Positions 5,274-37,378 of a DNA stretch of 38,688 nt are shown here, piece after piece. Source of the stretch: Chlorobiota bacterium (GTDB lineage Bacteria > Bacteroidota > Bacteroidia > Bacteroidales > VadinHA17); the NCBI GenBank assembly GCA_013152085.1, contig JAADHC010000073.1, forward strand, positions 1 to 38,688, given 5' to 3'. The position numbers and the translations under genes were made by a program. The notes beneath the pieces are model-generated. The model had not been told where the DNA came from, did not search any database, and saw only the letters and a list, made by a program, of their open reading frames with translations. The first letter of the stretch is position 1. Every line of letters starts with the position of its first letter.

Positions 5274-5295
5274 GCCTGCCTGTCGGCAGGCAGGC
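5274..5295. repeat. 22-bp palindrome, intergenic
   Basis: GCCTGCCTG, a TCGG loop and CAGGCAGGC form perfect 9-bp arms. It is far more GC-rich than its surroundings. It is followed by a stretch with CTTGCGATTC and CTTCGTTCATG that looks like the debris of other short repeats. It may be a dispersed repeat unit; only one copy is in the window. Confidence 0.6.
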
Positions 5296-5568
5296 TTCTG
5301 CTTGCGATTCACTTCGTTCATGTCAGGCTTTTTGTTTTTCATTCAAAAAATGGAGACTCGCAATGATCCGGTATTGGCCGATAAAAAATCAAGCCTGTAA
5401 TTGAAAGACATTTATAAAACGATTAAAATATAATAAATGACGCTTGCGAAGCAAACAAATCACCCGTTCGTACATTCGTGGTTTCATATCAACAGGAACG
5501 ATAAACAAAACAAAATCCAGTAAGTAATTTTTAAAATAACTCGTAGATAATTCTCACCGTTTTTTCAG

Positions 5569-5596
5569 ACAGGAATTCCGAACATACGATTCCTGT
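5569..5596 (-). other. hairpin at the 3' end of the bat operon
   Basis: ACAGGAAT and ATTCCTGT form perfect 8-bp arms around a 12-base loop, 8 bases past the stop of the last gene of the bat operon. On the transcript the hairpin is not followed by a U-run, so it is more likely a 3'-end stabiliser or a weak terminator than a classical one. Confidence 0.35.
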
Positions 5597-5603
5597 AAAC
5601 AGG

Positions 5604-5996
5604 TTAATCCAGCGGGGCTTCGGCAATGACGTGGATGGAGAGGGTATGGTTTACCGTGTCTGCAAGGTTCAGTTCGTAGGTAAATTTCCCCTGTCCCAGG
5701 GTGATCTCATAGGTATAATCAACCGGAACCATTTCGTAGGCAACGCCATTGGCCGTAAGGGTAATATGTGCCTGGCGGTATGCCTTATCAAAACGATGGT
5801 AATCGGTAACTTTACCGGGTTGGATCTGACCATAGTTATATTCGCCGGCCGAAGTGTCAACGAATACATCATCAAAAACCTTAGTACTCAGATTCCTTAT
5901 TCTGATATCCGAAGGCCCTTCAGGACTTTTACGACATGAGTTTGTAACCGATATCAGCATAACGGTTACCAGGGCAATGAATAGTTTTTGCATCAT
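5604..5996 (-). CDS. small lipoprotein, last gene of the bat operon
   Basis: A 130-residue protein I do not recognise. The N-terminus is a lipoprotein signal: MMQKLFIALVTVMLISVTNS and then Cys21, so it should be lipid-anchored in the envelope. The rest alternates short polar and hydrophobic strands (IRIRNLSTKVFDDVFVDT, then KFTYELNLADT) and looks like a single beta-sandwich domain; there is no repeat, metal site or further membrane segment. It begins 10 bases after the stop of batE, so it is very likely transcribed with the bat genes. Small lipoproteins are not part of the canonical bat set, so it may be an accessory partner or merely the tail of the operon. Two ATG codons stand in tandem at the start. 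Confidence 0.75.
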   Translation of the reverse strand: MMQKLFIALVTVMLISVTNSCRKSPEGPSDIRIRNLSTKVFDDVFVDTSAGEYNYGQIQPGKVTDYHRFDKAYRQAHITLTANGVAYEMVPVDYTYEITLGQGKFTYELNLADTVNHTLSIHVIAEAPLD

Positions 5997-10434: not shown

Positions 10435-10444
10435 CACAACGATT

Positions 10445-11437
10445 TTAAGGTCCTGCCCGGAGAAATGTCAGCCTTAACAATACTTCCAGTAAAACAAACA
10501 GACCGGCCAGCAAGGCAAAAGGAAGGTATTCTTCCTCTTTTTTACTGAATTGTTTTACATCGATCTTTGATTTTTCAAGCTGATCAATTTCACGGTATAT
10601 TTCCTGTAATTTTTTATTATCCGTAGCCCTGAAATAGCGGCCTCCGGTCATGGAAGCAATATCCTGCAGCACCTTTTCATCAATCTGCACCTTCATCTGC
10701 TGGTAACGGATACCAAAGGGTGTCTGTACCGGATAGGGCGCCGTTCCGTGAGTACCTACACCAATGGTATAAACACGTATTCCGAATGTTTGTGCGATTT
10801 CAGCAGCTGTCATCGGGGCTATTTCTCCGCGGTTGTTCATCCCGTCGGTAAGCAGGATAATTACTTTGCTTTTGGCTTTACTGTCTTTCAGCCTGTTTAC
10901 TGCGGTGGCAAGTCCATCGCCAATGGCCGTTCCGTCTTCTATCATTCCGCTCTTCACATCCCTGAAGAGGTTGATCAGTACGGCATGATCCGTTGTCAGC
11001 GGACACTGTGTAAAGCTTTCCCCGCTGAAGACCACCAGTCCGATCCTGTCGTCGGGACGGCCGGAAATAAACCGGATGGCTACGTCTTTTGAAGCTTCCA
11101 GCCGGTTAGGTTGAAAATCCTGTGCCAGCATACTGCTGGAAATATCCAGGTCGAGGATAATATCAATACCTTCTGTAGAAACTTCCTGCCAGCGGTTTAC
11201 CGATTGTGGCCGTGCCATTACCATGATCAGCAGTGCAAGGGCCAGCAGACGGAAAACGAACAGCAAATGTCGCAGGTATTGGCGAACAGGTTTTTTAATC
11301 CCTTCGAAGGGCCGGAAACTGCTGTACTGCAATCCGGCCGTAAGCTTATGTTGCCGCCATACGTACCAGGCAATGATTACCAGCAATAATGGCAACAGAT
11401 ACAACCATTCCGGATTGGCAAACCGAAGATTATTCAT
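10445..11437 (-). CDS. batA: BatA: VWA-domain membrane protein
   Basis: A 330-residue paralogue of BatB with the same plan: two N-terminal membrane segments (about 10-27 and 56-74), a periplasm- or cytoplasm-facing VWA domain with an intact MIDAS motif (Asp98, Ser100, Ser102 in DISSS), LTDGMNNRGE for the distal metal loop, and a C-terminal membrane helix (about 306-323). The opening NLRFANPEWLYLLPLLLV is the classic BatA start. It overlaps the preceding gene by 8 bases and lies about 10 bases before batB. The retained metal site suggests that partner binding through Mg2+ is intact. Confidence 0.92.
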   Translation of the reverse strand: MNNLRFANPEWLYLLPLLLVIIAWYVWRQHKLTAGLQYSSFRPFEGIKKPVRQYLRHLLFVFRLLALALLIMVMARPQSVNRWQEVSTEGIDIILDLDISSSMLAQDFQPNRLEASKDVAIRFISGRPDDRIGLVVFSGESFTQCPLTTDHAVLINLFRDVKSGMIEDGTAIGDGLATAVNRLKDSKAKSKVIILLTDGMNNRGEIAPMTAAEIAQTFGIRVYTIGVGTHGTAPYPVQTPFGIRYQQMKVQIDEKVLQDIASMTGGRYFRATDNKKLQEIYREIDQLEKSKIDVKQFSKKEEEYLPFALLAGLFVLLEVLLRLTFLRAGP

Positions 11438-12464
11438 GATCCGTTCCCTCCTCTCCTTTCAGTTCCGGTTCAGCTAAAGCCGTTTCAGGCTTTTCAGTCC
11501 CCTCAGGTTTGCCCGTTTCGTCTGATGCTTCCTTATTCCATGCTTCACGTGTTCCGTTGACAAACACCACGGCATCCAGTAAAACGGATTCATTTTTGTC
11601 CGGAAGCGGTTTGTATTTGGCAAACTTTACAAGATCGGCTGTCCGGAGAATATCACGCAGGGTCTCGAAAAGCCTTTTGTCATTAAAGCCTTTACTTTTT
11701 AATGCATTAAGACTCTCGGATGTTGTCATTTCCATAGCCATGACTTCGTAACGATGATCCAGGTATGTCCTCAGGATATCGGAGAGCCTGGTATAGAAAA
11801 CTTTTAATTCTCCTTTTTGCCAGAGTTTTTCATCGCGCAGTTTATTCAGCCCGCGCAGTGCAATCACATGTGCCGGTTCCCGGGGTTTTTGTTTTACCGG
11901 TTTTGTTTCTTCCGGCTTTTTCCTGTTGAACAGATAGCGGTATACTGCCCAGGCGATGGCCAGCAGGATCAGCAGGCCGATCAGGAAGGGTAACACCTCA
12001 GCCAACGTTAACGGGGCCTTGTAAGGGGCTTTAATATCGGCTATGGTTTTTGCCGTATCGACGGGCATGGGTTTTACATAAAGCGCCACAGGAGACGTTG
12101 CCAGCCTTACATGCAGGCTGTCCTTGTCATAAGCAACTTCAAGCGGGGGAACGGTAACTTCAGTCGTATCAAAACTGGTCACCAGGTATCTGCGTGTAAT
12201 TTCCAGTCTGTTGCCATCCACCGGTATCGTGTCGATACCCAGGGTTTTCAGTATTTCCACACCTCCGGGAAGTGAATCTTTAAATTCAGGCACGGATAAG
12301 CTGAGGCCGGCAGGCTGTTGGAGTTTGAACTGAAATTCAACCTGGTCTCCGATTAAAATAGTATCCCTGCTGAAAGAGGCGTGAAGAGAAACTTCCTGGC
12401 CACTTGATCTGAGCATGGAAAGGATCATCATCATGGACACCATGAACAGGGATGGCTTCCTCAT
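11430..12464 (-). CDS. BatD-like bitopic protein between DUF58 and batA
   Basis: A 344-residue protein with a signal peptide (MRKPSLFMVSMMMILSMLRSSGQ), a periplasmic beta-sandwich domain that resembles one BatD repeat (SRDTILIGDQVEFQFKLQQP, about 32-51), one membrane helix (about 157-178) and a cytoplasmic helical domain (KVFYTRLSDILRTYLDHRY) of the kind also found at the C-terminus of BatD and DUF4381 proteins. The last 40 residues are acidic and low in complexity. ATG 12464 is chosen because it starts an ideal signal peptide; ATG 12518, one base after the DUF58 stop, would give 362 residues, and the longest frame starts at 12584. A protein of this kind occupies the same place in many Bacteroidota bat operons, and probably couples the VWA proteins to MoxR/DUF58, which is inference. 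Confidence 0.85.
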   Translation of the reverse strand: MRKPSLFMVSMMMILSMLRSSGQEVSLHASFSRDTILIGDQVEFQFKLQQPAGLSLSVPEFKDSLPGGVEILKTLGIDTIPVDGNRLEITRRYLVTSFDTTEVTVPPLEVAYDKDSLHVRLATSPVALYVKPMPVDTAKTIADIKAPYKAPLTLAEVLPFLIGLLILLAIAWAVYRYLFNRKKPEETKPVKQKPREPAHVIALRGLNKLRDEKLWQKGELKVFYTRLSDILRTYLDHRYEVMAMEMTTSESLNALKSKGFNDKRLFETLRDILRTADLVKFAKYKPLPDKNESVLLDAVVFVNGTREAWNKEASDETGKPEGTEKPETALAEPELKGEEGTDHE

Positions 12465-26197: not shown

Positions 26198-26659
26198 TTA
26201 TATTTTCACCACAAGTTTACCGGTATTTTTTCCTGAAAACAAGCTGATCAGTGCCTTCGGGAGGCTCTCAAAACCTTCTTGTATTTCCATAACAGGAACC
26301 AACTTATCCTGACTTACCCACTTTCGCAACTGCTCCCTTGCTTCGTCAAAACGTTGCTGATAATCATACACAATAAAACCCTTCATCAGTGCCCTGTGGA
26401 TCAGCAGGAGGGCATTCAGTATGGGCCCCATAACAATCCGGGTATTGTTATATTGCGATATTTGCCCGCACAGCACAATTCTTGCAAAATTATTCATCCG
26501 GTTTCGCATATAGGGATCAACGGAAAGAAAAAGAGTACGGATCAGAATTGCTCCCGGTTCAGGTTCCGGTACAGGTGAGGCTTCAAGCATAAAGTTGTCA
26601 GGGATTATTTCTCCCTGCGGCCGCGAAACAAAAATCCAGGTCTGGTTTTTCTGTGTCAT
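26198..26659 (-). CDS. internally deleted NADP-dependent MDR oxidoreductase remnant
   Basis: An open frame of 153 residues that joins the two ends of a medium-chain dehydrogenase/reductase of the leukotriene-B4/CurA-like type (about 330 residues when intact). The N-terminal 50 residues (FVSRPQGEIIPDNFMLEASP, then LFLSVDPYMRNRMN) are those of the GroES-like domain. The sequence then jumps directly to the C-terminal part beginning NFARIVLCGQISQYN and ending IQEGFESLPKALISLFSGKN. About 170-190 residues, including the whole NADP-binding Rossmann core, are missing without a frameshift. The junction is near 26496. Without the cofactor site it should be catalytically dead, although translation may continue. 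Confidence 0.8.
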   Translation of the reverse strand: MTQKNQTWIFVSRPQGEIIPDNFMLEASPVPEPEPGAILIRTLFLSVDPYMRNRMNNFARIVLCGQISQYNNTRIVMGPILNALLLIHRALMKGFIVYDYQQRFDEAREQLRKWVSQDKLVPVMEIQEGFESLPKALISLFSGKNTGKLVVKI

Positions 26660-26927
26660 TGAGGTACCATTCAAATAATTTATAACCCGGCAAAAAATGA
26701 ATAAGGTAAAAATAGACCTTTTTTCTATATCTTTTAAGGAATGTTATCCGTAATACAGGTAGAATTATTAATATATTTTCAGAACTTCAGGTTTAATAAT
26801 TTTTTTTTTAATAATCTTTAGCAGTCATGCCGGAAACATACAATTCCGCTTTACGTTATATTAATATTATTACTTTTTTAACGGGCATAACGGAATTTTC
26901 GGCATATTTTCATAATTTTAGCAACCT

Positions 26928-29900
26928 ATGAACCGCAGCATAACGATTCTCATATTGTGGCTTATTCTGCAATTTGTCCCGGCAACCCAGATGGCTTCCG
27001 GACAGTTGCTTCCTTTCGACAACTACACTATTCATAACGGGTTACCGCAAAATTCGGTCTTTGATATTGTCCAGGATCAACAAGGGTATTTATGGTTTGC
27101 CACTCAGGTTGGGGCTTCCCGGTTTGACGGGAAAGGTTTTAAGAACTATTATGTTGCCGATGGACTACCGGATAACTATGTGAATTGCCTTTTAACGGAT
27201 TCTAAAGGCCGGATATGGTTTGGGACGGATGGTGGCGGAGTGGGCCGTAAAGATGGGATCAACTGGATAACTTTCAGGAAAACGGATGGATTGATAGATG
27301 ACCATATCGAGAAGTTGTATGAAGACCATTCGGGACGTATCTGGGTAATGACCCATTACGGGGTAAGCTATATCACGCCACAGGATAGTATTTACAGTTA
27401 CGACCGGAAAAACGGTTTGATACATAACAATGTTATCAGTATGTACGAAGACCGTGACGGAAACATGTGGCTCGGAACACAAACGGGATTATCGGTTTTT
27501 CGTGGAGACAGTATCTGGAACAAACCTTTGAATGATGTGGTTTGGGGTATCGATGAAGACTCGCATGGAAATCTATGGTTTGCAACGCAGGGGAGCGGAA
27601 TCTACCGGTATGACGGCGAGATATTTTATCATTATACGACAAACGAAGGGCTTACCAGCAATATTGTAATATCAATCTTCGTAGACACACGGGACCAGGT
27701 CTGGTGCGGCACTTATGAAGGTGGCGTTTCCATGTATGACGGTAAACGTTTCACTTCCCACATCGAGAACGGAATCAATAAGGAAGTGATCATGAGTTTC
27801 TTTGAGGACAGCCGGGGTGTTCTCTGGGCACGACCCAATGAAAATGGAATATACAGATTAAAAAAGGGAGAATTTCATCACCTGGATAAATCCAATAACC
27901 TGATTGACAATTATGTCCTTAAGATTTATGAAGACAACCAGCATAACCTCTGGTTTGGAACTTTAGGGGGTGTTTCGGAATATGCGAAGTTTACCTTTGA
28001 GTTTTTCACCGATGCAGACGGTTTGCCGGATAACAGTATCTTCTCTGTTGCTGCCGACAGCAAAGGGAATATATGGGCAGGTACCAATATCGGACTGGCA
28101 AGGTATAACGGTAGCCGTTTCAGGATATGGAATAAGAATAATGGCCTGCCCGATTTTACCATCACCAAGATCCTGGAAGATCAAAAGGGGCGGATATGGG
28201 CTGCCAGTTATTCAACCATTTCCAGGATTTCCGGTGAACATGTAATCAACTACCGGGATACGACCATTCTTCGCCAAAGTGTTATTTACGATATGGATGA
28301 AGATGACCAGGGACGGCTGTGGTGTGCTACCGAACGCGGAATATATTTATTTGAAAATAATCATTTTGAAAATCCGGCAAAGGGAACCATTCTGGCACAG
28401 CAGGAAGCACGGGGGATTTGCTGGAACAAAGGTATTGTGTGGGTAGCCACCGGCAAAGGGTTATTCAGGTTTGATCCTGAAACAAAAGATCTGAGAGTAC
28501 TGACTACGGACCAGGGCATGCCGGACAACAAATGCCGGGACGTAGTATGCGATGAAAACGGCATCCTCTGGGTAGCAACTGACGGCGGGCTGGTAAAAAT
28601 CAACAGACAGGAAACAACCTCAAAAATTCAAACATTTACTACAAAGGACGGGCTTGAATCCAATACGCTCTATTTTGTCTTACCTGATCAACGCGGACAT
28701 CTGTGGATCGGTCATGAAAAGGGCCTGAACCGCCTTGATATCGAAACCGGAAAAATCCGGTATTACGGTGTCGAAGAAGGATTTCTGCCTCTTGAAACCA
28801 ACCAGGGGGCGATTGCACTGGATAAACATAAGAATATCTGGATCGGCACCGTAGCCGGGCTTGCTCATTATGATCCTGCTTTTGAGCGAACGGCTTCCAA
28901 TCCACCGTTTACTTTTCTTCGAAACATCCTCGTTTTTAACGAAAAGACTGACCTTGCATCCTACTGCGACAGTCTGAATCCGTCTACCGGTCTTCCGGTA
29001 AACCTGACGCTCCCTTATAACAAGAATTCCATTACGTTTCAGTATATCGGAATCCACTTCACAATACCTTCAAAAGTCACCTATCAATACAAGTTACAAA
29101 ACTATGATGCAGACTGGTCCCCGAAAACACCACTCACGGAGGTAACCTACAAAAAGATTCCTCCGGGGGATTATACCTTTCTTATAAAAGCAGCCAATGC
29201 TGATGGTGTATGGAATCCGACACCTTCATCATTCTCATTCCGGATCAAACCTCCATTCTGGCAGACAGGGTGGTTTATCACACTGTCCGTTATTGCCGGA
29301 TTATTGCTGATTTTCTGGATTATCAAGCTGCGGGAACGGCAACTGATCAGAGAAAAAAGGATCCTTGAGGAAAAGGTGCGCGAACGAACCAAAGAAATCC
29401 GTAAACAAAAGGATGAGATTGAAAAGCAGCGCGATGAAATTGAAAAACAGCGTGATGAGATCCAGCAACAAAAGGAGATTGCCGAATCCCAGCGTGATCA
29501 GATCGCCTTGCAGAACAGGGAGATCAAAGACAGTATTTTTTATGCCAAACGTATACAGTCTGCTGTACTGCCGAGTGATGAAGAAATAAAATCAATATTG
29601 AATGAGTATTTTATCCTCTTTAAGCCGCGGGATATTGTTTCGGGAGATTTTTACTGGCTGCATCGTAACCAGTCTAAAACAGTGGTTATAGCAGCCGATT
29701 GTACGGGACACGGTGTTCCGGGTGCATTTATGAGCATGCTTGGTGTAACGCTTCTGAATGAAATTATGAGTAAAGACCGTGTATATCAGGCCAACCTGAT
29801 CCTTAACCGGCTCAGGGATTACATTAAAATTACCCTCGGCCAAACCGGAAAACTCGATGAAGCCAAAGACGGGATGGATATGGCCCTGGTGGTATTGGAC

Positions 29901-30272
29901 GAGGAAAAAATGGAAATTCAGTATTCAGGGGCATATAATCCGCTGATCCTGATCCGTGACGGTGAACTGCTTGAATTCAAAGGTGATAAAATGCCTATCG
30001 GTATCCAGGTTAACGAAAAGGAATCTTTTACCAACCATGTCATTCCGGCCAAACCCGGTGACACGCTCTATATTTTCTCTGATGGTTATGCCGACCAGTT
30101 TGGCGGTGATCATGGTGGAAAATTTAAAATCCGGCCATTCAAAAATCTGTTATTGGAGATCCATGCTAATCCCCTTCCGGAACAAAAGAAAATCCTGTAT
30201 AAAACCCTTGTGGAATGGATGCAGAAAGAACAGCAGGTAGATGATATTCTTGTGATCGGGCTGAGGGTTTGA
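26928..30272 (+). CDS. propeller/Y_Y_Y sensor with SpoIIE-type PP2C phosphatase output
   Basis: A 1114-residue membrane sensor. After a signal peptide (ending ATQMASGQ) come about 14 regulator-propeller repeats (units such as GYLWFATQVGASRFDG and NLWFGTLGGVSEY), then a Y_Y_Y domain (KVTYQYKLQNYDADWSP, near 713), one membrane helix (about 779-798) and a long coiled coil (about 800-870) with three near-identical seven-residue units KQ(K/R)DEIE. The cytoplasmic end is a SpoIIE/PP2C phosphatase with metal-binding Asp907 (SGDFYW) and Asp924 (AADCTGHGVPGAF), and DGMDMA and SDGYADQFGG later. It should therefore dephosphorylate a protein in response to an envelope signal. In most Bacteroidota relatives the propeller/Y_Y_Y part is joined to a kinase instead. 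The ATG at 26928 follows a weak -7 box (TAATTTTA). Confidence 0.9.
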   Translation: MNRSITILILWLILQFVPATQMASGQLLPFDNYTIHNGLPQNSVFDIVQDQQGYLWFATQVGASRFDGKGFKNYYVADGLPDNYVNCLLTDSKGRIWFGTDGGGVGRKDGINWITFRKTDGLIDDHIEKLYEDHSGRIWVMTHYGVSYITPQDSIYSYDRKNGLIHNNVISMYEDRDGNMWLGTQTGLSVFRGDSIWNKPLNDVVWGIDEDSHGNLWFATQGSGIYRYDGEIFYHYTTNEGLTSNIVISIFVDTRDQVWCGTYEGGVSMYDGKRFTSHIENGINKEVIMSFFEDSRGVLWARPNENGIYRLKKGEFHHLDKSNNLIDNYVLKIYEDNQHNLWFGTLGGVSEYAKFTFEFFTDADGLPDNSIFSVAADSKGNIWAGTNIGLARYNGSRFRIWNKNNGLPDFTITKILEDQKGRIWAASYSTISRISGEHVINYRDTTILRQSVIYDMDEDDQGRLWCATERGIYLFENNHFENPAKGTILAQQEARGICWNKGIVWVATGKGLFRFDPETKDLRVLTTDQGMPDNKCRDVVCDENGILWVATDGGLVKINRQETTSKIQTFTTKDGLESNTLYFVLPDQRGHLWIGHEKGLNRLDIETGKIRYYGVEEGFLPLETNQGAIALDKHKNIWIGTVAGLAHYDPAFERTASNPPFTFLRNILVFNEKTDLASYCDSLNPSTGLPVNLTLPYNKNSITFQYIGIHFTIPSKVTYQYKLQNYDADWSPKTPLTEVTYKKIPPGDYTFLIKAANADGVWNPTPSSFSFRIKPPFWQTGWFITLSVIAGLLLIFWIIKLRERQLIREKRILEEKVRERTKEIRKQKDEIEKQRDEIEKQRDEIQQQKEIAESQRDQIALQNREIKDSIFYAKRIQSAVLPSDEEIKSILNEYFILFKPRDIVSGDFYWLHRNQSKTVVIAADCTGHGVPGAFMSMLGVTLLNEIMSKDRVYQANLILNRLRDYIKITLGQTGKLDEAKDGMDMALVVLDEEKMEIQYSGAYNPLILIRDGELLEFKGDKMPIGIQVNEKESFTNHVIPAKPGDTLYIFSDGYADQFGGDHGGKFKIRPFKNLLLEIHANPLPEQKKILYKTLVEWMQKEQQVDDILVIGLRV

Positions 30273-30466
30273 AGGATGATTGTTGGAGCCCCCGGACACT
30301 GAGTGCGTCGAGCATAGCGAAGCATGTATTTTTTATTCGTGAATTCGTGGCTTTAAGAAACATTATCCGAAAGTTTTTATTATAAAATGCAAGATATCCG
30401 TTACCTCATTTGGTAAACGGTCTGAGATCATTTAACTTACATGCATCAATCTTGTAGTTTACAGGG

Positions 30467-32716
30467 TTGATAAATAGGCAACAAGACCAACCACAAAATT
30501 TGCATCTCATCAGAACACAAAAAAACATCATAAAAACCTGTACAAAGAAAAGAATAAAGCTTTCCGTGATTTTCATGAATATGCTTTTATGGTTATGTCT
30601 CCCGTTTTTTGGGACTGCGGGAAACATTCCCCCTTTCACCTACAGTATTATTCAATCAATTGTCACCATTAAACAGCGTGACACGGCACGTATTCATAAG
30701 TTATGCAGCCAGGCAATCTCCCTTCGCAGGGATGATCCGGAAGGTGCCTTTGCTTATACTAAGGAAGCCCTTTCTTTAAGTGATTCCCTGGATTACCTCG
30801 CCGGGAAAGCACAGGCATGGCATACCCTTGGCAGGATTCTCCACAGCAATTTCAGGCTTGGCAAAGCAAGAGAAGCCTATCATAAGGCTGATTCATTATA
30901 CTATATACTAAATCTCCCGGAACAGCTGGCAGATACAAGAAATAAAATTGGTATCACCTATGGAATGGAAGGGTACTATGACAGTTCACTTTACTATTTT
31001 CAACAGAGTCTGGAATTGTATGCAGACCTGGGACAAAGAATAAAAGTCGCAAATTGTCAGAACAATATGGGCAATGTCTATAAATATCTTGGTAAATATG
31101 ACCTCTCTGTTGATTCCTACAATAAAGCGTTACAAAGTTATGCCGAAGTGAATGATTCCGGAGGAATTGCATCAAGTTACGACAATCTCGGTATCGTTTT
31201 TGATTTACAGGGGAATTACCGGGAAGCACTCGATTATTATTTCAAGGCACTCCGCCTGAGGGAAGCCGTTGGAGATACAGCCGAATTGACGAACTCTCTG
31301 TGCAATATTGGGATTATGTACTACTATCTCTCCGATTATGAAAAAGCCAGAGAATATCAGGAAAAAAATCTTGAACTTTCCAAAGCCATCAAAGATTTAC
31401 GTGGAGAAGGAATTGCATACAACAATCTGGGCAGCATTTCGAAGCGGCAGGGAAATGCTGAACAGGCGATCACATATTACCGGAATGCATTGAAGATTTT
31501 CGAAAGCTCCGGAGAAAGGCATGCCATTACGGATACACATATATATATGGCCGACCTGTTTATCAAGCAGGGAAAAACCGGTGAAGCGAAGTCACACCTG
31601 GATAAAGCCCTGTCTTTGGGTGAAGATATTCAATACAGTCAGGGAGTGGCAAACGCCTCTTTGGGACTCGGAAAGCTGGCACTGCTGCTGGAAGAACAAA
31701 ACAGCGCGGAAAAGTATCTTGTCAAAGCATTACGGCTGGGTGAAGAAATCGGTATGCCGGAAATTATTTTATCCGCAGCAGAACACTTAAGTGATCTTTA
31801 TAAACAAAGAGGAGATTTTAAGAATGCCTATGCATATCATGTAAAGTTTAAGAGGATGAGTGACAGTCTTATCAGCAGGGAAAACATAGAACACCTGACA
31901 CGTCTTGAGATGCAACATACGTTTGACATTAAACAGGACTCATTGCAATTGGAACAAGCCAAAAGAAATTTTTTACAGGAGATAAGATTAAAACGACAGC
32001 AAAGACAACGAAACTTACTGATCGGCGGGATCCTTGTCCTGTTTGTTGTTCTTTTGCTGGTGTACAGGATCTACCGGCAGAAAAAGAAAGCAAATACTGA
32101 AAAGGAAGTCCTGCTGAAAGAAATTCACCACCGGGTAAAAAACAACCTGCAAACGATCACCAGCCTGCTCAGCCACCAGGGATATGCCGTTGGCAATGTA
32201 GATATCCGGACAGCTATGGAAGAAAGCCAGGGAAGGGTACAGTCCATTGCACTGATCCACCAGATGCTCTATCAAAGTGAAAATCTGAAAAATATCAATA
32301 TCCAGGAGTATCTTGAAAACCTCGTACAATCCATCGGAGACATGGTTCAATCCGCAAATCAACAGATCACCTTTATCGTTAATGCACATCATGCATTTAT
32401 GGATATAGATACGGCGATCCCCATCGGGTTGATTGTAAATGAGCTGGTTACCAATGCCTGTAAGTATGCATTTATAAACCGTCATAGTGGCAAAATAAAG
32501 GTTGAGATTAATAAAACCGGAATTTCAGATTACGAGCTGATCGTGGCAGATGACGGCATAGGAATTCCTGAAATAGATCTTTCCGGAACTCCTGATACCC
32601 TGGGCCTCAAACTGGTTTTTATCCTGGCAAAGCAATTGAAAGGTAATGTTGAGTTTCATACAAACCACGGAACGGAAATCATTATCCGGTTTCATGAAAT
32701 CATGAAAAACAATTAA
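30467..32716 (+). CDS. TPR-sensor histidine kinase (HisKA_2 type)
   Basis: A 749-residue kinase. An N-terminal hydrophobic segment is followed by a long array of TPR units (about residues 65-480; for example NCQNNMGNVYKYLGKYDLSV, EGIAYNNLGSISKRQGNAEQ), which should be periplasmic, then a coiled stretch, a membrane helix (about 521-539, LLIGGILVLFVVLLLVYRIY) and the catalytic part. The phosphoacceptor region is EIHHRVKNNLQTITSLL with His554/His555, the HisKA_2 (HWE-like) class, followed by HATPase_c with NELVTNACKYAF and DDGIGIPEID. ATG 30467 gives the full frame; ATG 30575 (MNMLLWLCLPF) is an alternative start. A TTTG (30409) and TAACTTAC (30433) pair lies 20 bases apart upstream as a possible promoter. 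The LytTR regulator follows 61 bases later and is its likely partner. Confidence 0.9.
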   Translation: MINRQQDQPQNLHLIRTQKNIIKTCTKKRIKLSVIFMNMLLWLCLPFFGTAGNIPPFTYSIIQSIVTIKQRDTARIHKLCSQAISLRRDDPEGAFAYTKEALSLSDSLDYLAGKAQAWHTLGRILHSNFRLGKAREAYHKADSLYYILNLPEQLADTRNKIGITYGMEGYYDSSLYYFQQSLELYADLGQRIKVANCQNNMGNVYKYLGKYDLSVDSYNKALQSYAEVNDSGGIASSYDNLGIVFDLQGNYREALDYYFKALRLREAVGDTAELTNSLCNIGIMYYYLSDYEKAREYQEKNLELSKAIKDLRGEGIAYNNLGSISKRQGNAEQAITYYRNALKIFESSGERHAITDTHIYMADLFIKQGKTGEAKSHLDKALSLGEDIQYSQGVANASLGLGKLALLLEEQNSAEKYLVKALRLGEEIGMPEIILSAAEHLSDLYKQRGDFKNAYAYHVKFKRMSDSLISRENIEHLTRLEMQHTFDIKQDSLQLEQAKRNFLQEIRLKRQQRQRNLLIGGILVLFVVLLLVYRIYRQKKKANTEKEVLLKEIHHRVKNNLQTITSLLSHQGYAVGNVDIRTAMEESQGRVQSIALIHQMLYQSENLKNINIQEYLENLVQSIGDMVQSANQQITFIVNAHHAFMDIDTAIPIGLIVNELVTNACKYAFINRHSGKIKVEINKTGISDYELIVADDGIGIPEIDLSGTPDTLGLKLVFILAKQLKGNVEFHTNHGTEIIIRFHEIMKNN

Positions 32717-32721
32717 AAGAA

Positions 32722-32751
32722 TTTGTAAATTTAGAAATATAATTAACTTTG
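32722..32751 (+). promoter_or_regulatory. promoter of the LytTR regulator
   Basis: TTTG (32722-32725) and TAACTTTG (32744-32751) lie 18 bases apart, a full match to the Bacteroidota -33/-7 pair. The message would start about 20 bases before the ATG at 32778. The regulator therefore can be transcribed independently of the upstream kinase. Confidence 0.65.
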
Positions 32752-32777
32752 ATATCAGACTAATTTTATCCCCTTTG

Positions 32778-33518
32778 ATGAGTAAGGTTCGTATACTTAT
32801 CGTTGAAGATGAATTAATAGTGGCGGAGGACATCCGGAATTTACTGAAGCTGCTTGGGTATGAAGTTGCAGGCATTGCAACAAGTTATGATGAAGCTGAA
32901 AGGATGCTTTCCCTTCGTATGCCTGATATGGCTATTGTTGATATCAAAATATCCGGGAAAAAAGATGGTATTGAACTTGCCGAATATATCCGTTACCGGT
33001 ATCATATTGCTATTCTTTTTCTTTCTTCACATGCTGAAAAGGAAACCGTTGAGCGTGCAAAAAAGGTTCACCCGGATGGTTACTTATTGAAACCTTTCAA
33101 GAAAAAAGATCTGTACACAGCAATTGAGATAGCTTTATCCAATTTTAATCTGAGCCGGGAAACGGTTCCAGGGGAAGAACTCGATGAGGCAACCTATATC
33201 CTGAATAACAGTATTTTTATTAAAAAGGATTTTGCCTTTATTAAAGTGCATTATAGAGATATCAAATGGATACAGGCATTTGGGAATTACCTGATCCTTC
33301 ATTGCAATGGTGAAAAACATACGGTACGATCAACCTTCCGGGATATGCTGGATAAACTTCCTGAAGGTCATTTTATGCAGGTGCACCGTTCTTTTGCTGT
33401 GAATTTAAGCCAGATTAAAGTAATCAGGCAAAACTCACTGGTTATCGAGAATCATAATATCCCTATCGGCAGGACCTATCTGGACAAAGTTAAAAAGGAG
33501 CTGGAAATAAAACAATGA
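32778..33518 (+). CDS. LytTR-family response regulator
   Basis: A 246-residue DNA-binding response regulator. The receiver (1-120) has Glu10/Asp11, phosphoacceptor Asp55 in AIVDIKISG and Lys105 in LLKPF. The LytTR DNA-binding domain (about 140-246) has DIKWIQAFGNYLILHCNGEK, TFRDMLDKLP, FMQVHRSFAVNLSQI and IPIGRTYLDKVKKEL, all typical. ATG 32778 is used; a TTG codon just before it is the longer frame. It follows the HisKA_2 kinase and precedes the two surface genes, whose upstream region has a direct repeat of LytTR-operator geometry, so direct control of those genes is a testable inference. Confidence 0.93.
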   Translation: MSKVRILIVEDELIVAEDIRNLLKLLGYEVAGIATSYDEAERMLSLRMPDMAIVDIKISGKKDGIELAEYIRYRYHIAILFLSSHAEKETVERAKKVHPDGYLLKPFKKKDLYTAIEIALSNFNLSRETVPGEELDEATYILNNSIFIKKDFAFIKVHYRDIKWIQAFGNYLILHCNGEKHTVRSTFRDMLDKLPEGHFMQVHRSFAVNLSQIKVIRQNSLVIENHNIPIGRTYLDKVKKELEIKQ

Positions 33519-33600
33519 GTCATTGTCGTCATATCCGGTAAAATTTGTCCGTCTCTTGCATAATCCTTTTTTAACCCTGAAGCCTGATAATACCAGATAC

Positions 33601-33630
33601 ATTCGTCACAAATATTTGTCATTCGTCACA
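33601..33630 (+). promoter_or_regulatory. candidate LytTR operator: two direct repeats at 20-bp spacing
   Basis: ATTCGTCACA occurs at 33601-33610 and again at 33621-33630, exactly two helical turns apart in register. LytTR regulators bind tandem direct repeats about two turns apart. The repeats lie 6 bases upstream of a TTG that could be the -33 box, between the LytTR gene and the surface genes. The specific binding sequence of this regulator is unknown, so the assignment rests on geometry and location. Confidence 0.55.
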
Positions 33631-33635
33631 AAAAA

Positions 33636-33666
33636 TTGACATAGGTACAACTATGCATTAAGTTTA
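33636..33666 (+). promoter_or_regulatory. candidate promoter of the surface-gene pair
   Basis: TTG (33636-33638) and TAAGTTTA (33659-33666) are 20 bases apart; the -7 box fits TAnnTTTG at seven of eight positions. A transcript would start near 33673, giving a leader of about 35 bases. The weak boxes suit a promoter that needs an activator bound at the direct repeats immediately upstream. Confidence 0.45.
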
Positions 33667-33706
33667 TATCAAAATAACTTCTCAAATACCACAAAATCAC
33701 TGAACG

Positions 33707-34201
33707 ATGAGAAAAACAGTTAGTATTCTCCTAATAACACTGTTTATACCGGTAGTAACCGGGCAATCCCTCTCCCCCACGGTCTTAGCTACTGCAGGGT
33801 CGGTTTTCGATAATGGCTCTTTCAGTCTTTCATGGACTGCAGGCGAACTGGCGGTAGCCACGCTTACTGCAGGCGATATCATACTCACACAGGGTTTTCA
33901 GCAACCGGCCGGAATTTCAACGGGAATCAACAGAAACCGGCCTTCATGGAATATCCGTAGCTACCCGAACCCGGTAACGGATTACCTGACCATACATTTT
34001 GAGCTGGACAAACCCATTGAAATCATTATTGAAGTTACGGATATACTGGGACGTAAACAGGTCATCAGGAACCGCAGCATGATTGCTCCCGGTGAAACCA
34101 GAGAGCTGGATTTTACAGGTTTATCCGAAGGCATTTACCTCATGCAACTTATGACCCCGGATAAGAAAACCGTGCAAATATTCAAAATCATAAAAAGATA
34201 A
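33707..34201 (+). CDS. small T9SS-sorted surface protein
   Basis: A 164-residue exported protein. A signal peptide (MRKTVSILLITLFIPVVTGQ) precedes a short beta-rich domain with SFSLSWTAGELAVATLTAGD and ILTQGFQQPAG, then a linker and a C-terminal T9SS sorting domain (type A): SYPNPVTDYLTIHFEL (about 85-100), VTDILGRKQVI and LSEGIYLMQLMTPDKKTVQI, ending KIIKR. The domain should direct it through the outer membrane by the type IX machinery. The mature part before the sorting domain is only about 60 residues, so it may be a surface cap or anchor. The fibre gene starts 34 bases later and is probably in the same transcript. Confidence 0.88.
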   Translation: MRKTVSILLITLFIPVVTGQSLSPTVLATAGSVFDNGSFSLSWTAGELAVATLTAGDIILTQGFQQPAGISTGINRNRPSWNIRSYPNPVTDYLTIHFELDKPIEIIIEVTDILGRKQVIRNRSMIAPGETRELDFTGLSEGIYLMQLMTPDKKTVQIFKIIKR

Positions 34202-34235
34202 AATCAAACCTATTTCAGAAACTAAATCCACAATC

Positions 34236-36170
34236 ATGAAACTAAAAGCCAATAACCGGAAAATGTGGAACAGGAATTTTCTTTCCACTATTATTACTTT
34301 CTCCTTTTGTCTTTTGCACCCGACGATTCTCCTTCGTCGAATGCCGGGATTAGTTCGACTTTTGCATTTCGCGTCGCAAGCTCGCAAAAGGCAAGTCTCA
34401 CTAACTTTTGTCTTTTTACTTTTATCTTTTATTTTCTCCTACGCTCAGGTGCCGCAGGGATTCAATTACCTGGCGGTGGTTCGGGACGGATCAGGAAACA
34501 TCATTAAAAACCAGGACATCGGACTACAGATCAGCATTCTTCAGGGTAGTGAAACCGGTACGGTGATCTACACGGAAACACATCAGGCTACCACGACAGA
34601 CCAGGGACTTATTGTGCTTCAGGTTGGCAAGGGTACGGTAGTAACAGGAGACTTTTCGGCCGTTGACTGGAGTAATGGCCCATACTTTCTGAAAGTTGAG
34701 GCGGATGTTGCCGGCGGCACAAATTATGTATCCATGGGCAGTACGGAATTGCTCAGTGTTCCGTATGCGTTGCAGTCAGGAGGGATAAGCAACCTGGAAC
34801 GACTGACGATTCAGGGTAACGACCTTGCCCCGGACTCAGCACTATTTAAGGTTACGCGGAAAGACGGACAGACGGTATTTGCCGTTTACAATACGGGTGT
34901 ACGGATCTATGTTGATACTTCTGCCGCCAAAGGGAACAAAGGCGGGTTTGCCATTGGCGGGTTTGGCGCTGCAAAAGGCCAGGTACGGGAGTACATGCGG
35001 GTTACCCCTGACAGCACACGGATTTATATAAAAAAAAGAGGATTCAGCAAAGGTAGCAGAGGCGGGTTTGCCATCGGAGGTTTTGATGCGGCGAAAGGGG
35101 GAACTTCCAATTTCCTCGACCTGACGCCTGAAAACTATTTTATCGGCCATGAAGCCGGTTATTCAAACACTACGGGGATCTACAATACTTTCTTTGGATA
35201 CCAGGCCGGCCGCAGCAATACTACGGGAGAAAGAAACCTCTTTTTGGGATATCTTGCCGGTTTTAACAATAGTGACGGCTCGGGTAACATCTTTATCGGG
35301 GATTCAACCGGATATTCAAATAGCAGTGGTATAAGAAACATTTTTATCGGAAATCAGGCCGGACGGTTTAATACTACAGGATATCAGAATATTGCCATAG
35401 GTATGTGGGCCGGGAATGAAAACACAACGGGGAACCGGAATGTTTTTATCGGTACGGCCGCCGGATGGTCAAATTCCGAAGGGGTAACAAACGTTTTCCT
35501 GGGAAATTTTGCGGGAGCATTGAATACTACCGGAAACCAAAACGTTTTCGTGGGCAGAACAGCCGGATATTCGAACACTACCGGTGAAGATAATGTTTTC
35601 CTTGGAACGAACAGCGGACGGAAAAACAAAAGCGGATCAAGCAATCTGTTTATCGGTCTGAATGCCGGTTATGAAAATGACTCAGCCAGTGCAAATATTT
35701 TTCTCGGAAATGATGCCGGTTATTCAAATACATATGGTTATAAAAACGTTTTTATAGGACATCAGGCAGGCTATAACAACACGGAAGGTTATATCAATGC
35801 CTTTATCGGAAACATGGCCGGATACTCCAACACAACAGGTTATCTGAATATTTTTATCGGCGATTCATCCGGAACAAGCAATACTACCGGATACTGGAAT
35901 GTTTTCCTGGGCGAGAACACCGGAAAAAGCAACACCGAAGGCCGGAGTAATGTATTTATCGGCGACAAAGCAGGGAGAGACAATACGGTCGGTATAAAAA
36001 ACGTATTCGTGGCGTGGGAGCCATTGCCGGATGGAGTAATACGGAAGGAAACAACAATGTTTTCCTTGGAACGGCTACCGGCGCTAACAACCTCTCGGGA
36101 AGTAACAATTGCTTTCTCGGGAGTTATGCCGGCAGAAAAACGACAACAGGAAATACAAATATTTTCATAG
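34236..36170 (+). CDS. tandem-repeat surface fibre protein, 5' part (frameshifted)
   Basis: The first 644-residue reading frame of a large repeat protein; without a 5-nt insertion at 36009-36013 it would continue to 37378 (about 1045 residues in all). After an unusual double-hydrophobic N-terminus (see the insert at 34321-34397) comes the domain VPQGFNYLAVVRDGSGNIIK, familiar from the N-terminus of Bacteroidota tail-fibre-like proteins, then two GGFAIGGF units (about 233-293) and 17 consecutive 17-residue repeats of the pattern N-x-F-I-G-x-x-A-G-x-x-N-T-T-G from 35133. The last 55 residues of this frame, after NVFV, are out of frame with the repeat and read as unrelated residues. Such repeats are predicted to stack as a beta-roll; the function (adhesion or S-layer-like fibre) is inference. 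Confidence 0.8.
   Translation: MKLKANNRKMWNRNFLSTIITFSFCLLHPTILLRRMPGLVRLLHFASQARKRQVSLTFVFLLLSFIFSYAQVPQGFNYLAVVRDGSGNIIKNQDIGLQISILQGSETGTVIYTETHQATTTDQGLIVLQVGKGTVVTGDFSAVDWSNGPYFLKVEADVAGGTNYVSMGSTELLSVPYALQSGGISNLERLTIQGNDLAPDSALFKVTRKDGQTVFAVYNTGVRIYVDTSAAKGNKGGFAIGGFGAAKGQVREYMRVTPDSTRIYIKKRGFSKGSRGGFAIGGFDAAKGGTSNFLDLTPENYFIGHEAGYSNTTGIYNTFFGYQAGRSNTTGERNLFLGYLAGFNNSDGSGNIFIGDSTGYSNSSGIRNIFIGNQAGRFNTTGYQNIAIGMWAGNENTTGNRNVFIGTAAGWSNSEGVTNVFLGNFAGALNTTGNQNVFVGRTAGYSNTTGEDNVFLGTNSGRKNKSGSSNLFIGLNAGYENDSASANIFLGNDAGYSNTYGYKNVFIGHQAGYNNTEGYINAFIGNMAGYSNTTGYLNIFIGDSSGTSNTTGYWNVFLGENTGKSNTEGRSNVFIGDKAGRDNTVGIKNVFVAWEPLPDGVIRKETTMFSLERLPALTTSREVTIAFSGVMPAEKRQQEIQIFS
34321..34397. repeat. palindromic insert in the signal-peptide region
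   Basis: CGACGA and TCGTCG (34321-34339) form a small hairpin, and CTTTTGC and GCAAAAG (34359-34365 and 34384-34390) another; the surrounding DNA is flanked by similar CTTTTGTCTTTT stretches (about 34304 and 34404). It looks like a repeat insertion of about 75-90 bases, in frame, that separates a first hydrophobic segment (TIITFSFCLL) from the second (LTFVFLLLSFIFSYAQ). Confidence 0.45.
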
Positions 36171-37150
36171 GAAAATCCAGCGGATATTCAAACACAACCG
36201 GCTCGGATAATATTTATATCGGAAACGGTGCCGGTGTATATTCCGATACAACCTATTCAAACATTTTTATCGGCAACAACAGCGGTGAAAGCAATGTTGC
36301 CGGCCTGGGGAATGTCTTTGTGGGAAACCGTACAGGTGCCGAAAATACATTAGGCGGTAACAATACATATATCGGACATGAAAGTGCCCACTATGCGACT
36401 GAAGGTGAATTGAATGCCTTCCTGGGAGCATACAGCGGACATCATAACACTACCGGTTCCAAAAATGTATTTCTCGGTGCAAATGCCGGGGTAAACAACA
36501 ACAGCGGTTCAGACAATACACTTGTGGGGCCATATGCAGGAAATTCACTTCAAACCGGTAGCTTTAATGTGTACATCGGCGGATTTGCAGGTGGAGGCAA
36601 TACTACCGGCGACGGGAATGTCTTTGTCGGGTATTCTGCCGGTGATGCCACATCCGGTTCCAACCTGCTTTATATTGAAAATTCCCCGGTGGATTCGTCT
36701 CAGGCACTGATTTACGGAGAGTTTGACAATGATTACCTCCGCTTTAATGCAGATGTAACCATACGTGGCCGTCTTGATTTTGCAGAGACGGGTGACGACA
36801 ATATTTTTATCGGTGACTCTGCAGGGTTCTACAGGGCCGGAGGCACGGCAAATACTTTCCTCGGATCACATGCCGGTATGAATACAGGTGATGGCCTGTT
36901 GAACACATTTGTCGGTGCATGGTCCGGACAGTATAATACGGCAGGAAACAACAATACATTCATGGGCCGCACTGCAGGACTTAACAATATTGACGGCAAC
37001 GACAACACTTTTGTGGGTGCCAGTGCGGGATATTTCAATATCAGCGGGATAAACAACGTGGCTCTCGGGAGACTGGCAGGATTGAATACCCTCGGCGACG
37101 GAAACATTTTTATCGGATATAAGTCAGGATACAATGAGACCGGTTCCAAC
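35133..37150 (+). repeat. about 37 tandem repeats of 17 residues (51 nt) in the fibre gene
   Basis: Block 1 runs from 35133 to about 36660 with about 30 repeats, such as IYNTFFGYQAGRSNTTG and NRNVFIGTAAGWSNSEG. A linker with NLLYIENS and ALIYGEFDNDYLRFNA follows, then block 2 (about 36790-37140) with seven repeats, and a second LYIENS...ALIYGEFD...LRLNA cap. The codon choice differs between repeats, so the repeats are old rather than fresh copies. Confidence 0.9.
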
Positions 37151-37378
37151 AGGCTCTATATCGAAAACTCGGACTCTGACAACACCGGAGCGCTTATCTA
37201 CGGGGAATTTGATACGGATGTTCTTCGACTGAATGCGCTGACAACGGTGCGGGATGCCCTGATCCTGGAACCTCAATCTTCACCTCCCGCCAACCCGGTA
37301 GAAGGGATGATGTATATGGACAGTACAGACCACAAACTTAAGGTTTACAACGGTACTGGGTGGCAGGCTTTGTGGTAA
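36014..37378 (+). CDS. tandem-repeat surface fibre protein, 3' part (frameshifted)
   Basis: The second reading frame of the same fibre gene, beginning within repeat 18 (GAIAGWSNTEG) and running 454 residues to the true C-terminus (DHKLKVYNGTGWQALW). It holds about 12 more repeats of block 1, the first cap, the seven repeats of block 2 and the second cap. The frame opens with a GTG at 36014, with no ribosome site, so it is unlikely to be made by itself; it is shown separately because the frame is broken. The end carries no T9SS sorting domain, in contrast to the small gene before it, so export would need another route or partner. Confidence 0.75.
   Translation: MGAIAGWSNTEGNNNVFLGTATGANNLSGSNNCFLGSYAGRKTTTGNTNIFIGKSSGYSNTTGSDNIYIGNGAGVYSDTTYSNIFIGNNSGESNVAGLGNVFVGNRTGAENTLGGNNTYIGHESAHYATEGELNAFLGAYSGHHNTTGSKNVFLGANAGVNNNSGSDNTLVGPYAGNSLQTGSFNVYIGGFAGGGNTTGDGNVFVGYSAGDATSGSNLLYIENSPVDSSQALIYGEFDNDYLRFNADVTIRGRLDFAETGDDNIFIGDSAGFYRAGGTANTFLGSHAGMNTGDGLLNTFVGAWSGQYNTAGNNNTFMGRTAGLNNIDGNDNTFVGASAGYFNISGINNVALGRLAGLNTLGDGNIFIGYKSGYNETGSNRLYIENSDSDNTGALIYGEFDTDVLRLNALTTVRDALILEPQSSPPANPVEGMMYMDSTDHKLKVYNGTGWQALW

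Follow-up and report, generated by a model that had tools for sequence, protein, structure and literature searches.

Related systems

The closest described relatives of the fibre analysed here are the mosaic adhesive trimer (MAT) fibres of Bdellovibrio bacteriovorus, which, as set out in the main text of PMC10769870, resemble it in having a signal peptide, an apparently related N-terminal domain, a long stalk and exchangeable tips, some of the tips in both groups having S74 or C1q/TNF-like folds. According to the same main text, in which the terms 'T9SS' and 'Bacteroid' are absent, the surface element that binds the MAT N-terminal domain awaits identification. Unlike the Bdellovibrio genes, the Bacteroidota fibre gene is accompanied by a gene for a small T9SS partner. 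To our knowledge, the signal of known T9SS cargo is part of the functional protein. At the present locus it is borne by a tiny partner instead, and the large fibre lacks one.

With regard to regulation, the kinase FimS of Porphyromonas has a role in surface-fibre control. The kinase of this locus is likewise a TPR sensor kinase that stands beside putative surface-fibre control, while unlike FimS it is of the HisKA_2 type and is paired with a LytTR regulator, and its score of 156.6 bits is far under the FimS equivalog cut-off of 600 (NCBIfam NF053520). The regulator resembles AgrA and HdrR, in being a REC-LytTR protein with direct repeats 12-13 bases apart just 5' of a -33/-35 box (PMC6193735, PMC4227749); unlike in those systems, the candidate targets here are fibre genes.

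Layout of the locus

The window, that is, the whole stretch of 38,688 nucleotides analysed, contains five consecutive coding regions on the + strand, identified by open reading frames (ORFs) and domain matches, and the following features.

26928-30272, + strand: sensor with Reg_prop propeller and Y_Y_Y domains and a SpoIIE-type PP2C output (Pfam matches); a neighbour judged to lie outside the unit
30467-32716, + strand: TPR sensor histidine kinase, HisKA_2 and HATPase (Pfam; homologues L019 3628-5799, 40%, and L048 11660-13813, 43%)
32775-33518, + strand: LytTR response regulator, REC (Asp55) and LytTR DNA-binding domain (homologues 52% at C75, 50-51% in G021)
33602-33629, + strand: two direct repeats TTCGTCAC with 12 bases between, candidate regulator site (from the sequence)
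33636-33666, + strand: candidate Bacteroides-type promoter, TTG(ACA), 20 bases, TAAGTTTA
33707-34201, + strand: putative fibre partner with signal peptide, TQGF domain (about residues 20-68) and T9SS type A signal (residues 86-157)
34236-36008, + strand: probable MAT-type fibre, first part, with leader, MAT N-terminal-like domain (residues about 61-165) and 17 repeats
34345-34410, + strand: dispersed repeat element within the signal-peptide region of the fibre
36009-36018, + strand: frame-change site, near-repeat GTGGC GTGGG (five bases)
36014-37378, + strand: fibre, second part, with 19 repeats in two blocks, then the C-terminal tip

The initial annotation had described five same-strand genes forming one unit. 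The ORFs and domains at 26928-37378 agree with the five genes, but the unit is drawn differently here: the PP2C sensor is judged to lie outside it, since neither of the other module copies has it alongside and it was not seen near a fibre at 21 further homologue places. The fibre and the small T9SS protein mostly occur, across the phylum, without the LytTR regulator found beside the window pair, and on balance we favour, by a modest degree, a two-gene surface-fibre unit as the core. The frame change in the fibre, its kinship with MAT fibres and the phylum-wide pairing with the T9SS protein are points absent from the initial annotation.

A probable fibre of the MAT type

Judged by profile comparison, the N-terminal domain of the fibre appears related to that of the Bdellovibrio MAT fibres. 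The profile NF053851 gave matches at E<=1e-3 in 36 of the 40 fibre ORFs, with a best value of 9.3e-16, and at E<=0.01 in 14 of the 16 domain stretches, although the window fibre itself, at 25.9-30.9 bits, was under the curated NCBIfam cut-off of 60. The 40 sequences (alignment A4) were taken from 44 closed fibre ORFs, the window fibre being represented by its first frame, which is broken and does not reach the true end. Four were left out: L036 5669-5920, which has 83 aa, and L021 8734-9585, L066 15051-16070 and L067 3819-5267, each short or broken in frame. 'Fibre-like' ORFs lacking a MAT-N match were judged by eye. The variable C-terminal tips by which MAT fibres are recognised, with S74 chaperone/protease or lectin/TNF-like folds among them, were found across these 40 ORFs: S74 in nine, collagen in six, C1q in five, Lcl_C in four, FISUMP in three and a phage collar in one. 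The fibre is probably a MAT-type adhesin composed of a signal peptide, a MAT-like N-terminal domain, about 36 repeats and a tip, and it is probably trimeric.

Neither part of the window fibre gave a Pfam match. The fibre does not fit a YadA-type trimeric autotransporter: neither its two parts in the window nor the family list of the 40 fibre ORFs showed a C-terminal YadA anchor barrel, and YadA head repeats occur in one of the 40. A phage origin was rejected, the MAT-N-like domain of the window having no match in 50,697 phage records (E<=1e-3). Among solved structures, the MAT-N profile gave only weak antibody matches (best E 0.13), and the first fibre part gave two weak matches (best E 0.036).

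A fibre of about 37 repeats in a single reading frame had been proposed for this gene; the count is right, the first frame holding 17 anchors and the second 19, at spacings of exactly 17 residues, the repeat length, bar two (61 and 16), but the single frame is not. The repeat match in the ORF at 34236-36170 ends at about 36009, from where this frame continues out of phase to 36170, and the repeats resume in the ORF at 36014-37378, each of whose repeat blocks ends with a GSNxLYIENS module. In another genus, a single open frame covers the related fibre, L048 6743-9994 (1083 aa).

It is a real possibility, though one to which we give less than even weight, that the frame change is genuine and the window locus decayed or phase-varied, so that this copy is off or dead. 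Three other fibres also change frame, namely the second one on C75, that on C29 and one of G011; by eye, these changes sit at short near-repeats or a T run. On the other hand, the promoter and upstream genes look intact, the fibre of the G021 relative is whole, and the assembly is a draft in which contigs C75, C61, C12 and C32 start or end inside fibre genes, so that an assembly error is as likely. As a frame-broken gene, the window fibre may not be made as a whole product. A programmed frameshift gained no support, no slippery site being seen by eye to be common to the four frame changes examined, and a structured RNA at the signal-peptide insert was unsupported (fold z-score -1.15).

The small T9SS partner

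The partner contains the features of T9SS type A cargo, namely a signal peptide, recognised by inspection and by the N-terminal helix of the predicted model, and a Por_Secre_tail match of 45.8 bits against a cut-off of 27, with PorU over cut-off in the same genome (G000:C18). Between the two is an unnamed domain of about 54 residues ending in LTQGFQQP, referred to here as TQGF. In the wider alignment A5, which comprises 40 of 50 TQGF ORFs with long, truncated or open forms excluded, only G46, G63 and F64 are invariant. Two structure predictions, from 14 and 40 sequences, were both of low confidence in the TQGF part (pLDDT about 46-65 per block in one of them), and the TQGF profile had no match among solved structures at E<=1. 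A fold search with the partner model placed a chitin-binding factor first (E 3e-4) and returned, with modest E-values, the T9SS signal domains of PorU, PorZ, mirolase and RemA among its matches; as the aligned part of the model was not stated, the search is uninformative on the TQGF half.

The distribution of signals between the two proteins is complementary: Por_Secre_tail was found in 39 of the 40 small TQGF proteins, a figure which, given the A5 selection, applies to the small form with solitary copies included, versus none of the 40 fibre ORFs. For 11 of these 40 small proteins no fibre was seen nearby. In four loci, L040, L144, L156 (=L139) and L157 (=L142), a type-B signal (CHU_C) takes its place on the TQGF protein, and PorP/SprF follows, a family proposed in PMC9143113 to hold type-B cargo on the surface; the partner thus resembles the T9SS cargo described there in having a standard signal, and these four loci in pairing a type-B signal with a PorP/SprF gene. 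Larger TQGF proteins also exist, one of which (L036) has PKD-like repeats, and no ORF combining TQGF and MAT-N domains was seen.

Conservation of the pair

A homology search with the partner alone as query yielded 18 contigs, and in 15 of them no more than 700 bases separate TQGF from a MAT-N fibre; the 18 had been chosen with peptide patterns including part of TQGFQQP, and most of them built the profiles used for counting. In 40 genomes (the own genome and 39 relatives), TQGF lies beside a MAT-type fibre at 34 of 47 places: at 32, including all three of the own genome, a MAT-N domain follows on the same strand no more than 1.5 kb away (chance per place 0.0008), and at two more the fibre directly precedes the TQGF gene. 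The place-row totals of 47 and 142 agree with the per-genome counts. At the C75 place, one of the 32, an extra ORF lies between and the fibre start is broken. Among 148 genomes of the phylum, outside the own genome, 11 of 17 TQGF places are beside a fibre, and 13 of 17 over longer stretches.

The two genes are closely spaced, with gaps of -31 to 70 bases in 24 of 26 adjacent cases, both orders occurring. Of 72,556 plasmid records, the window TQGF protein matches one (E<=1e-3), and the L032 MAT-N domain matches that same single record (E<=1e-5); it belongs to a named isolate, Aureispira anguillae, and encodes WP_264793647.1 and WP_264793648.1 from genes 3 bases apart. Some counts speak against the adaptor reading set out below. 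No fibre is nearby at 10 of the 47 TQGF places, several of which have a conserved unrelated neighbourhood; the own genome has seven MAT-N fibre places versus three partners; and MAT-N is present without a TQGF match in 6 of the 40 genomes, suggesting that the partner is dispensable in some cases or has diverged. No description of the pair appeared among the titles that our literature searches listed.

Regulatory genes and upstream elements

The kinase more likely starts at the in-frame ATG at 30575 or 30581 than at the TTG at 30467. The regulator has the features of a LytTR response regulator, with a REC domain, a LytTR domain and paired direct repeats as a putative binding site, and the phospho-acceptor Asp55, named in the initial annotation, is in place. 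Genes for a TPR-kinase, a LytTR regulator, a T9SS protein and a fibre follow one another in that order again on C75 of the same genome, with an extra ORF before the fibre, and in G021, a relative of another genus; the kinase homologues L019 3628-5799 and L048 11660-13813 stand in the gene order of the window. The order whose conservation the initial annotation proposed to check is found for these four genes at these places, without the PP2C sensor. The regulator is rare: of the 40 genomes, 4 gave a match at E<=1e-40, the own one among them, and in two of the four it adjoins the pair, and the kinase-regulator order with the pair was seen in just these two.

The suggested tie between the regulator and the surface pair is supported by the repeated gene order and by LytTR-type direct repeats before the T9SS gene in all three modules (window, C75 and G021); such repeats also precede an unlinked fibre gene on C29. 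In the window the direct repeats noted near 33.6 kb are real, two copies of TTCGTCAC at 33602-33609 and 33622-33629, and their half-site TTCRTCMC presumably differs from the usual LytTR consensus. TTGACA (33636) begins 6 bases past the repeats, and TAAGTTTA (33659) follows 20 bases past TTG. LytTR repeats are mostly 12 (11-13) bases apart and just 5' of the -35 (PMC6193735). The weak promoter proposed at the same position fits the Bacteroides type (consensus TTTG / TAnnTTTG, as cited in PMC7366714); a sigma-70 scan found none there (shuffles mean 1.3), and a terminator scan found nothing.

The paired motif is rare, occurring in five rows (four places) of the whole 3.4 Mb genome, with none for the reversed control; the fourth place, on C63, is upstream of an unrelated gene. 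A composite pattern of half-sites 12-13 bases apart, 6-7 bases before TTG, then 20 bases and TAnnTT, matched only C7, C75 and C29 within the DNA scanned, the pattern being ungapped and its 'shuffles' first-order Markov resamples; the G021 promoter does not fit it. The repeat pattern was defined after inspection of three of the four promoters.

Proposed mechanism and alternatives

We consider it somewhat more probable than the opposite that the small partner is the T9SS adaptor and anchor of the fibre. Both proteins would reach the periplasm, where the TQGF domain would contact the N-terminal domain of the fibre; the T9SS would then export the partner, with the fibre along or not. PorU would cut off the type A signal and link the short remaining peptide to LPS, which would fix the base of the fibre at the surface. 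The neighbouring kinase and LytTR regulator are proposed to switch the pair on through the direct repeats just 5' of the promoter, and would probably also act on the second module copy and the unlinked fibre gene.

It is less probable, although worth weighing, that the TQGF protein mainly carries the bound, signal-less fibre through the T9SS and that something else anchors it. As with the adaptor and anchor, the complementary signals speak for such an escort, and so does the finding that G031, G034 and G038, the only genomes among the 40 in which PorU gave no match, have neither TQGF nor MAT-N matches. G034 is 61% complete, and in G023 (83% complete) TQGF and MAT-N are present with a PorU match under cut-off only. 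The exchange of a type-A for a type-B signal with PorP/SprF, however, points to anchoring. MAT fibres also get to the surface in Bdellovibrio (PMC10769870). As Bdellovibrio is not known to have a T9SS, another route out would exist.

We regard as improbable a reading in which the TQGF protein acts at the surface or tip in its own right, co-produced with the fibres and having no direct contact with them. The ten solitary copies and the larger TQGF proteins would fit this, but the tight adjacency in both orders argues against it, and removal of the signal would probably leave the small form with little beyond the TQGF domain.

Returning to the partner as adaptor and anchor, a broader and tentative proposal, less likely than not, is that TQGF serves MAT-type N-terminal domains in general as a docking peptide, with the signal supplied 'in trans', an exchangeable anchor and a lineage regulon. 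If so, large signal-less Bacteroidota fibres would be exported and held by the T9SS signal of a tiny partner, through LPS with type A and through PorP/SprF with type B; TQGF would be the first receptor known to hold a MAT fibre at its base; and the pairs of this lineage would be a regulon of the TPR-kinase/LytTR system. As the MAT work, in its main text (PMC10769870), left open what holds the fibre N-terminal domain, the conserved T9SS partner is a concrete, phylum-wide candidate, the pair offers a testable answer to how such fibres get fixed on cells, and it could show the T9SS serving proteins without their own signal.

The neighbouring PP2C sensor

The five-gene unit of the initial annotation, with the PP2C sensor acting against the kinase, is already disfavoured and very improbable: the sensor adjoins the others on the same strand in the window, the only neighbourhood on which the opposing roles rest, but 302 bases separate it from the first ATG of the kinase, it was not found beside the C75 or G021 modules, and, G003 excepted, none of its homologues at 21 further places scored shared a contig with a fibre or partner (40 genomes, E<=1e-120; contigs short in some genomes and 18 candidates scored in several). 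The sensor was therefore rejected as a unit member. It scored 186.1 bits against the NCBIfam equivalog cut-off of 700 for the SiaA biofilm phosphatase. In G003, which is one single contig, the sensor homologue lies more than 400 kb from the fibre/partner place.

Conservation of the partner-fibre pair

The draft genome (3.38 Mb, 75 contigs, 99% complete), of which the window is one entire contig (C7), carries five consecutive + strand genes at 26.9-37.4 kb, as the initial annotation had described:

26928-30272, +, first gene: Reg_prop/Y_Y_Y sensor with SpoIIE-type PP2C output (domain matches)
30467-32716, +, second gene: TPR kinase of the HisKA_2 type (domain matches)
32775-33518, +, third gene: REC-LytTR regulator (domain matches)
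33707-34201, +, fourth gene: 164-residue protein with a T9SS type A signal, the partner (domain matches)
34236-37378, +, fifth gene: fibre (ORFs and profile match)

The sensor gene ends 302 bases before the first ATG of the kinase; the next gaps were 58 bases (kinase to regulator), 188 bases (regulator to the T9SS gene) and 34 bases (T9SS gene to the fibre). The five genes had been read as one signalling-to-surface module, a reading that holds for the kinase, the regulator and the partner-fibre pair and fails for the PP2C sensor. The pair itself is the stronger result: a phylum-wide protein with a T9SS signal is the partner of fibres of the mosaic adhesive trimer (MAT) type. The fibre family, the secretion system and the regulator type are already known, and their combination with a signal carried on a tiny partner seems new.

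Homology search with the window T9SS protein returned contigs from Bacteroidota groups, and the own genome probably belongs to this phylum too. When the species-genome collection was searched with no query but the partner, 18 loci were obtained. In 15 of the 18 a fibre with the MAT-like N-terminal domain (MAT-N) lay on the same strand no more than 700 bases away, with gaps of -1 to 70 bases in 13 of these; the remaining three were a locus truncated within the partner by the end of its contig (L037), one with no fibre (L024) and one with the fibre at 2.6 kb (L041). Among 40 genomes (own and 39 relatives), the TQGF domain of the partner was found in 28 and MAT-N in 33 (both 27, TQGF only 1, MAT-N only 6, neither 6; one-sided Fisher p 0.0014). 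MAT-N stood within 1.5 kb downstream of 32 of the 47 TQGF places, against a chance of 0.0008 per place (binomial 2e-87), and the other 15 comprised two where MAT-N immediately precedes the partner (L059, L065), three with a fibre-like ORF before it (L056, L057, L064) and ten solitary ones. In a phylum-wide sample of 148 genomes TQGF was present in 15, own included, and outside the own genome MAT-N adjoined 11 of 17 TQGF places, or 13 of 17 on longer stretches (L156 and L157 added); the remaining four had MAT-N with one fibre fragment between (L159), MAT-N 655 bases off (L160), fibre-like ORFs only (L158) and no MAT-N within the 3.1 kb read (L146). The same pair, 3 bases apart, is found on plasmid pAUEa of the cultured isolate Aureispira anguillae (WP_264793647.1 and WP_264793648.1), the sole record among 72,556 plasmids matched by the window partner and, separately, by the MAT-N domain of one related locus (L032).

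Probable kinship with MAT fibres

Residues 61-165 of the window fibre, after the leader, matched NCBIfam NF053851 (E 7e-6, 25.9 bits against a cut-off of 60), the family of the N-terminal domain of Bdellovibrio MAT fibres. We collected 40 of the 44 closed fibre ORFs found to match MAT-N, drawn from the own genome, its relatives and further Bacteroidota; 36 of these 40 matched NF053851 at E<=1e-3 (best 9.3e-16). Their tips were S74 (9), collagen (6), C1q (5), Lcl_C (4), FISUMP (3), YadA head (1) and phage collar (1). A putative MAT-type N-terminal domain with mosaic tips corresponds to the anatomy given for MAT fibres (PMC10769870). A search of solved structures with the MAT-N profile gave no convincing relative. 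Tandem arrays of MAT-N fibres with differing downstream parts were seen at L026 4934-7167, L036 1534-9896 and L048 3-9994, a pattern that would fit an exchange of tips on a constant base.

The partner as a candidate adaptor or anchor

The partner consists of a signal peptide, a domain of about 54 residues ending LTQGFQQP, and the T9SS type A signal (45.8 bits in Pfam against a cut-off of 27). Pfam named no family for the first half in 40 members, NCBIfam named none for that of the window protein, and the string 'GFQQP' was not found by literature text search. TQGFQQP was invariant in an alignment of 14 members and G46, G63 and F64 in one of 40; structure prediction gave low confidence for the TQGF half.

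A T9SS signal was matched in 0 of the 40 fibre ORFs versus 39 of 40 small TQGF proteins. The PorU sortase is present in the own genome, and it would remove the partner's signal as in other type A cargo, which would leave little beyond the TQGF domain on the cell. Three of the 40 genomes had no PorU match, and the same three were without TQGF and MAT-N; counting against an adaptor or anchor role, one genome (G023, 83% complete) had TQGF and MAT-N with a PorU match only below cut-off. At L040, L144, L156 and L157 the TQGF domain carries a type-B signal instead; its gene stands behind that of a MAT-N fibre, and a PorP/SprF outer-membrane protein is encoded next. According to PMC9143113, type A cargo becomes attached to LPS, and PorP-like proteins are proposed as surface holders of type-B cargo. 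The most telling point is that across type-A and type-B loci fibre and TQGF are constant and the anchor is exchanged, as expected of an adaptor with a putative TQGF-fibre contact. At L063 6197-8248 (-) a TQGF protein with no fibre nearby directly follows a PorP/SprF-OmpA fusion.

Regulatory genes and promoter repeats

The order kinase-regulator-partner-fibre, without the sensor, recurs on another contig of the genome (C75) and in another genus of the family (G021), which upholds that part of the conserved order; on C75 partner and fibre are separated by an extra ORF, which by eye resembles DUF805. The regulator was matched at E<=1e-40 in only 4 of 40 genomes, own included, and in G010 and G035 the match was not beside the pair; the putative LytTR control is therefore local to few genomes and the pair general.

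The direct repeats noted near 33.6 kb before the surface pair were confirmed. In each of the three modules the partner gene is preceded by repeats of the TTCRTCMC kind, 12-13 bases apart (C7 has two, C75 three, and G021 two clear ones plus a weaker third by eye), and the same pattern precedes an unlinked fibre gene on contig C29, about 283 bases upstream of its ATG. The whole own genome held the pattern at 4 places (5 hits), on C7, C75, C29 and C63, the last before another gene type, and the reversed-pattern control gave 0; the other 38 genomes, G021 excluded, gave 23 hits, 6 of them in G020 sharing one sequence, versus 7 for the control. No such sites were found upstream of the other fibres of the genome (C61, the S74 fibre of C75 and the second C75 fibre). 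A composite of the last half-site, 6-7 bases, TTG, 20 bases and TAnnTT is shared by C7, C75 and C29 and had no other occurrence in the 0.96 Mb scanned (overlapping loci included). It did not arise when each promoter region was resampled 20,000 times by a first-order Markov model, and the promoter of the G021 module did not fit it. LytTR repeats are described as usually spaced by 12 (11-13) bases and lying shortly before -35 (PMC6193735), and the Bacteroides promoter boxes as TTTG and TAnnTTTG (PMC7366714).

A TTCRYCCC direct-repeat pair of similar kind was seen at G000:C63:43564 (L118), G012:C15:3313 (L103) and G022:C23:40836 (L104), three genomes that represent two genera; it lies some 100 bases ahead of one and the same gene type (start LPIIQGGMGVAVSLSG) and is perhaps a candidate site of another LytTR regulator. 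In other Bacteroidota, weak profile or blast matches near the pair indicated REC-like proteins, a TPR-kinase-like protein and propeller sensors (L025 725-2773, L027 1579-1977, L029 1026-5051, L032 263-3026, L040 1-708, L041 10919-14748), and the fibre pair may recruit varied control.

The PP2C sensor

The sensor was rejected as part of the unit. Its homologues occur at at least 21 other places in the 40 genomes (E<=1e-120; in several, the best 18 candidates scored), and none of the places scored lay on the same contig as TQGF or MAT-N, apart from the one-contig genome G003, where the distance exceeds 400 kb; with short contigs in some genomes, this linkage evidence is good, not complete. The proposed opposition of kinase and phosphatase likewise found no support. 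An oxidoreductase ORF of 158 aa at window 26198-26674 (-) matched both ends of curcumin/prostaglandin reductase families without the middle, and the jump at profile position 228-229, at residue 59, resembles the outcome of an in-frame internal deletion.

Frame changes and repeats in the fibre

The fibre repeats are real, with 17 anchors in the first part and 19 in the second, counted separately, spaced by 17 residues with two exceptions; the single gene frame assumed for them is not, as a frame change had been overlooked. The repeats run in ORF 34236-36170 to about 36009 and resume in ORF 36014-37378, and the DNA at the change, GTGGCGTGGG, contains a five-base near-repeat. A related G021 fibre of 1083 residues is in a single frame, with matches to the two parts at 51% and 54%. 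Further frame changes were found in the second C75 fibre, the C29 fibre and one G011 fibre (L019 501-755 / 2-586, L021 8734-9585 / 9461-11608 and L067 3819-5267 / 5224-5964), where by eye they coincide with a T run or short near-repeats. These changes may reflect assembly error, phase variation or decay, and assembly error is possible because contigs C75, C61, C12 and C32 start or stop within fibre genes.

A dispersed repeat of about 70 bases (GGATTAGTTCGACT...AGTCTCACTAAC) occurs at window 34345-34410, L067 3928-3995 and L071 4829-4920 and at places in G002, outside recognised ORFs, and G023, within short ORFs. In three genomes it lies in frame within the signal-peptide region of MAT fibres, and the leader is lengthened thereby.
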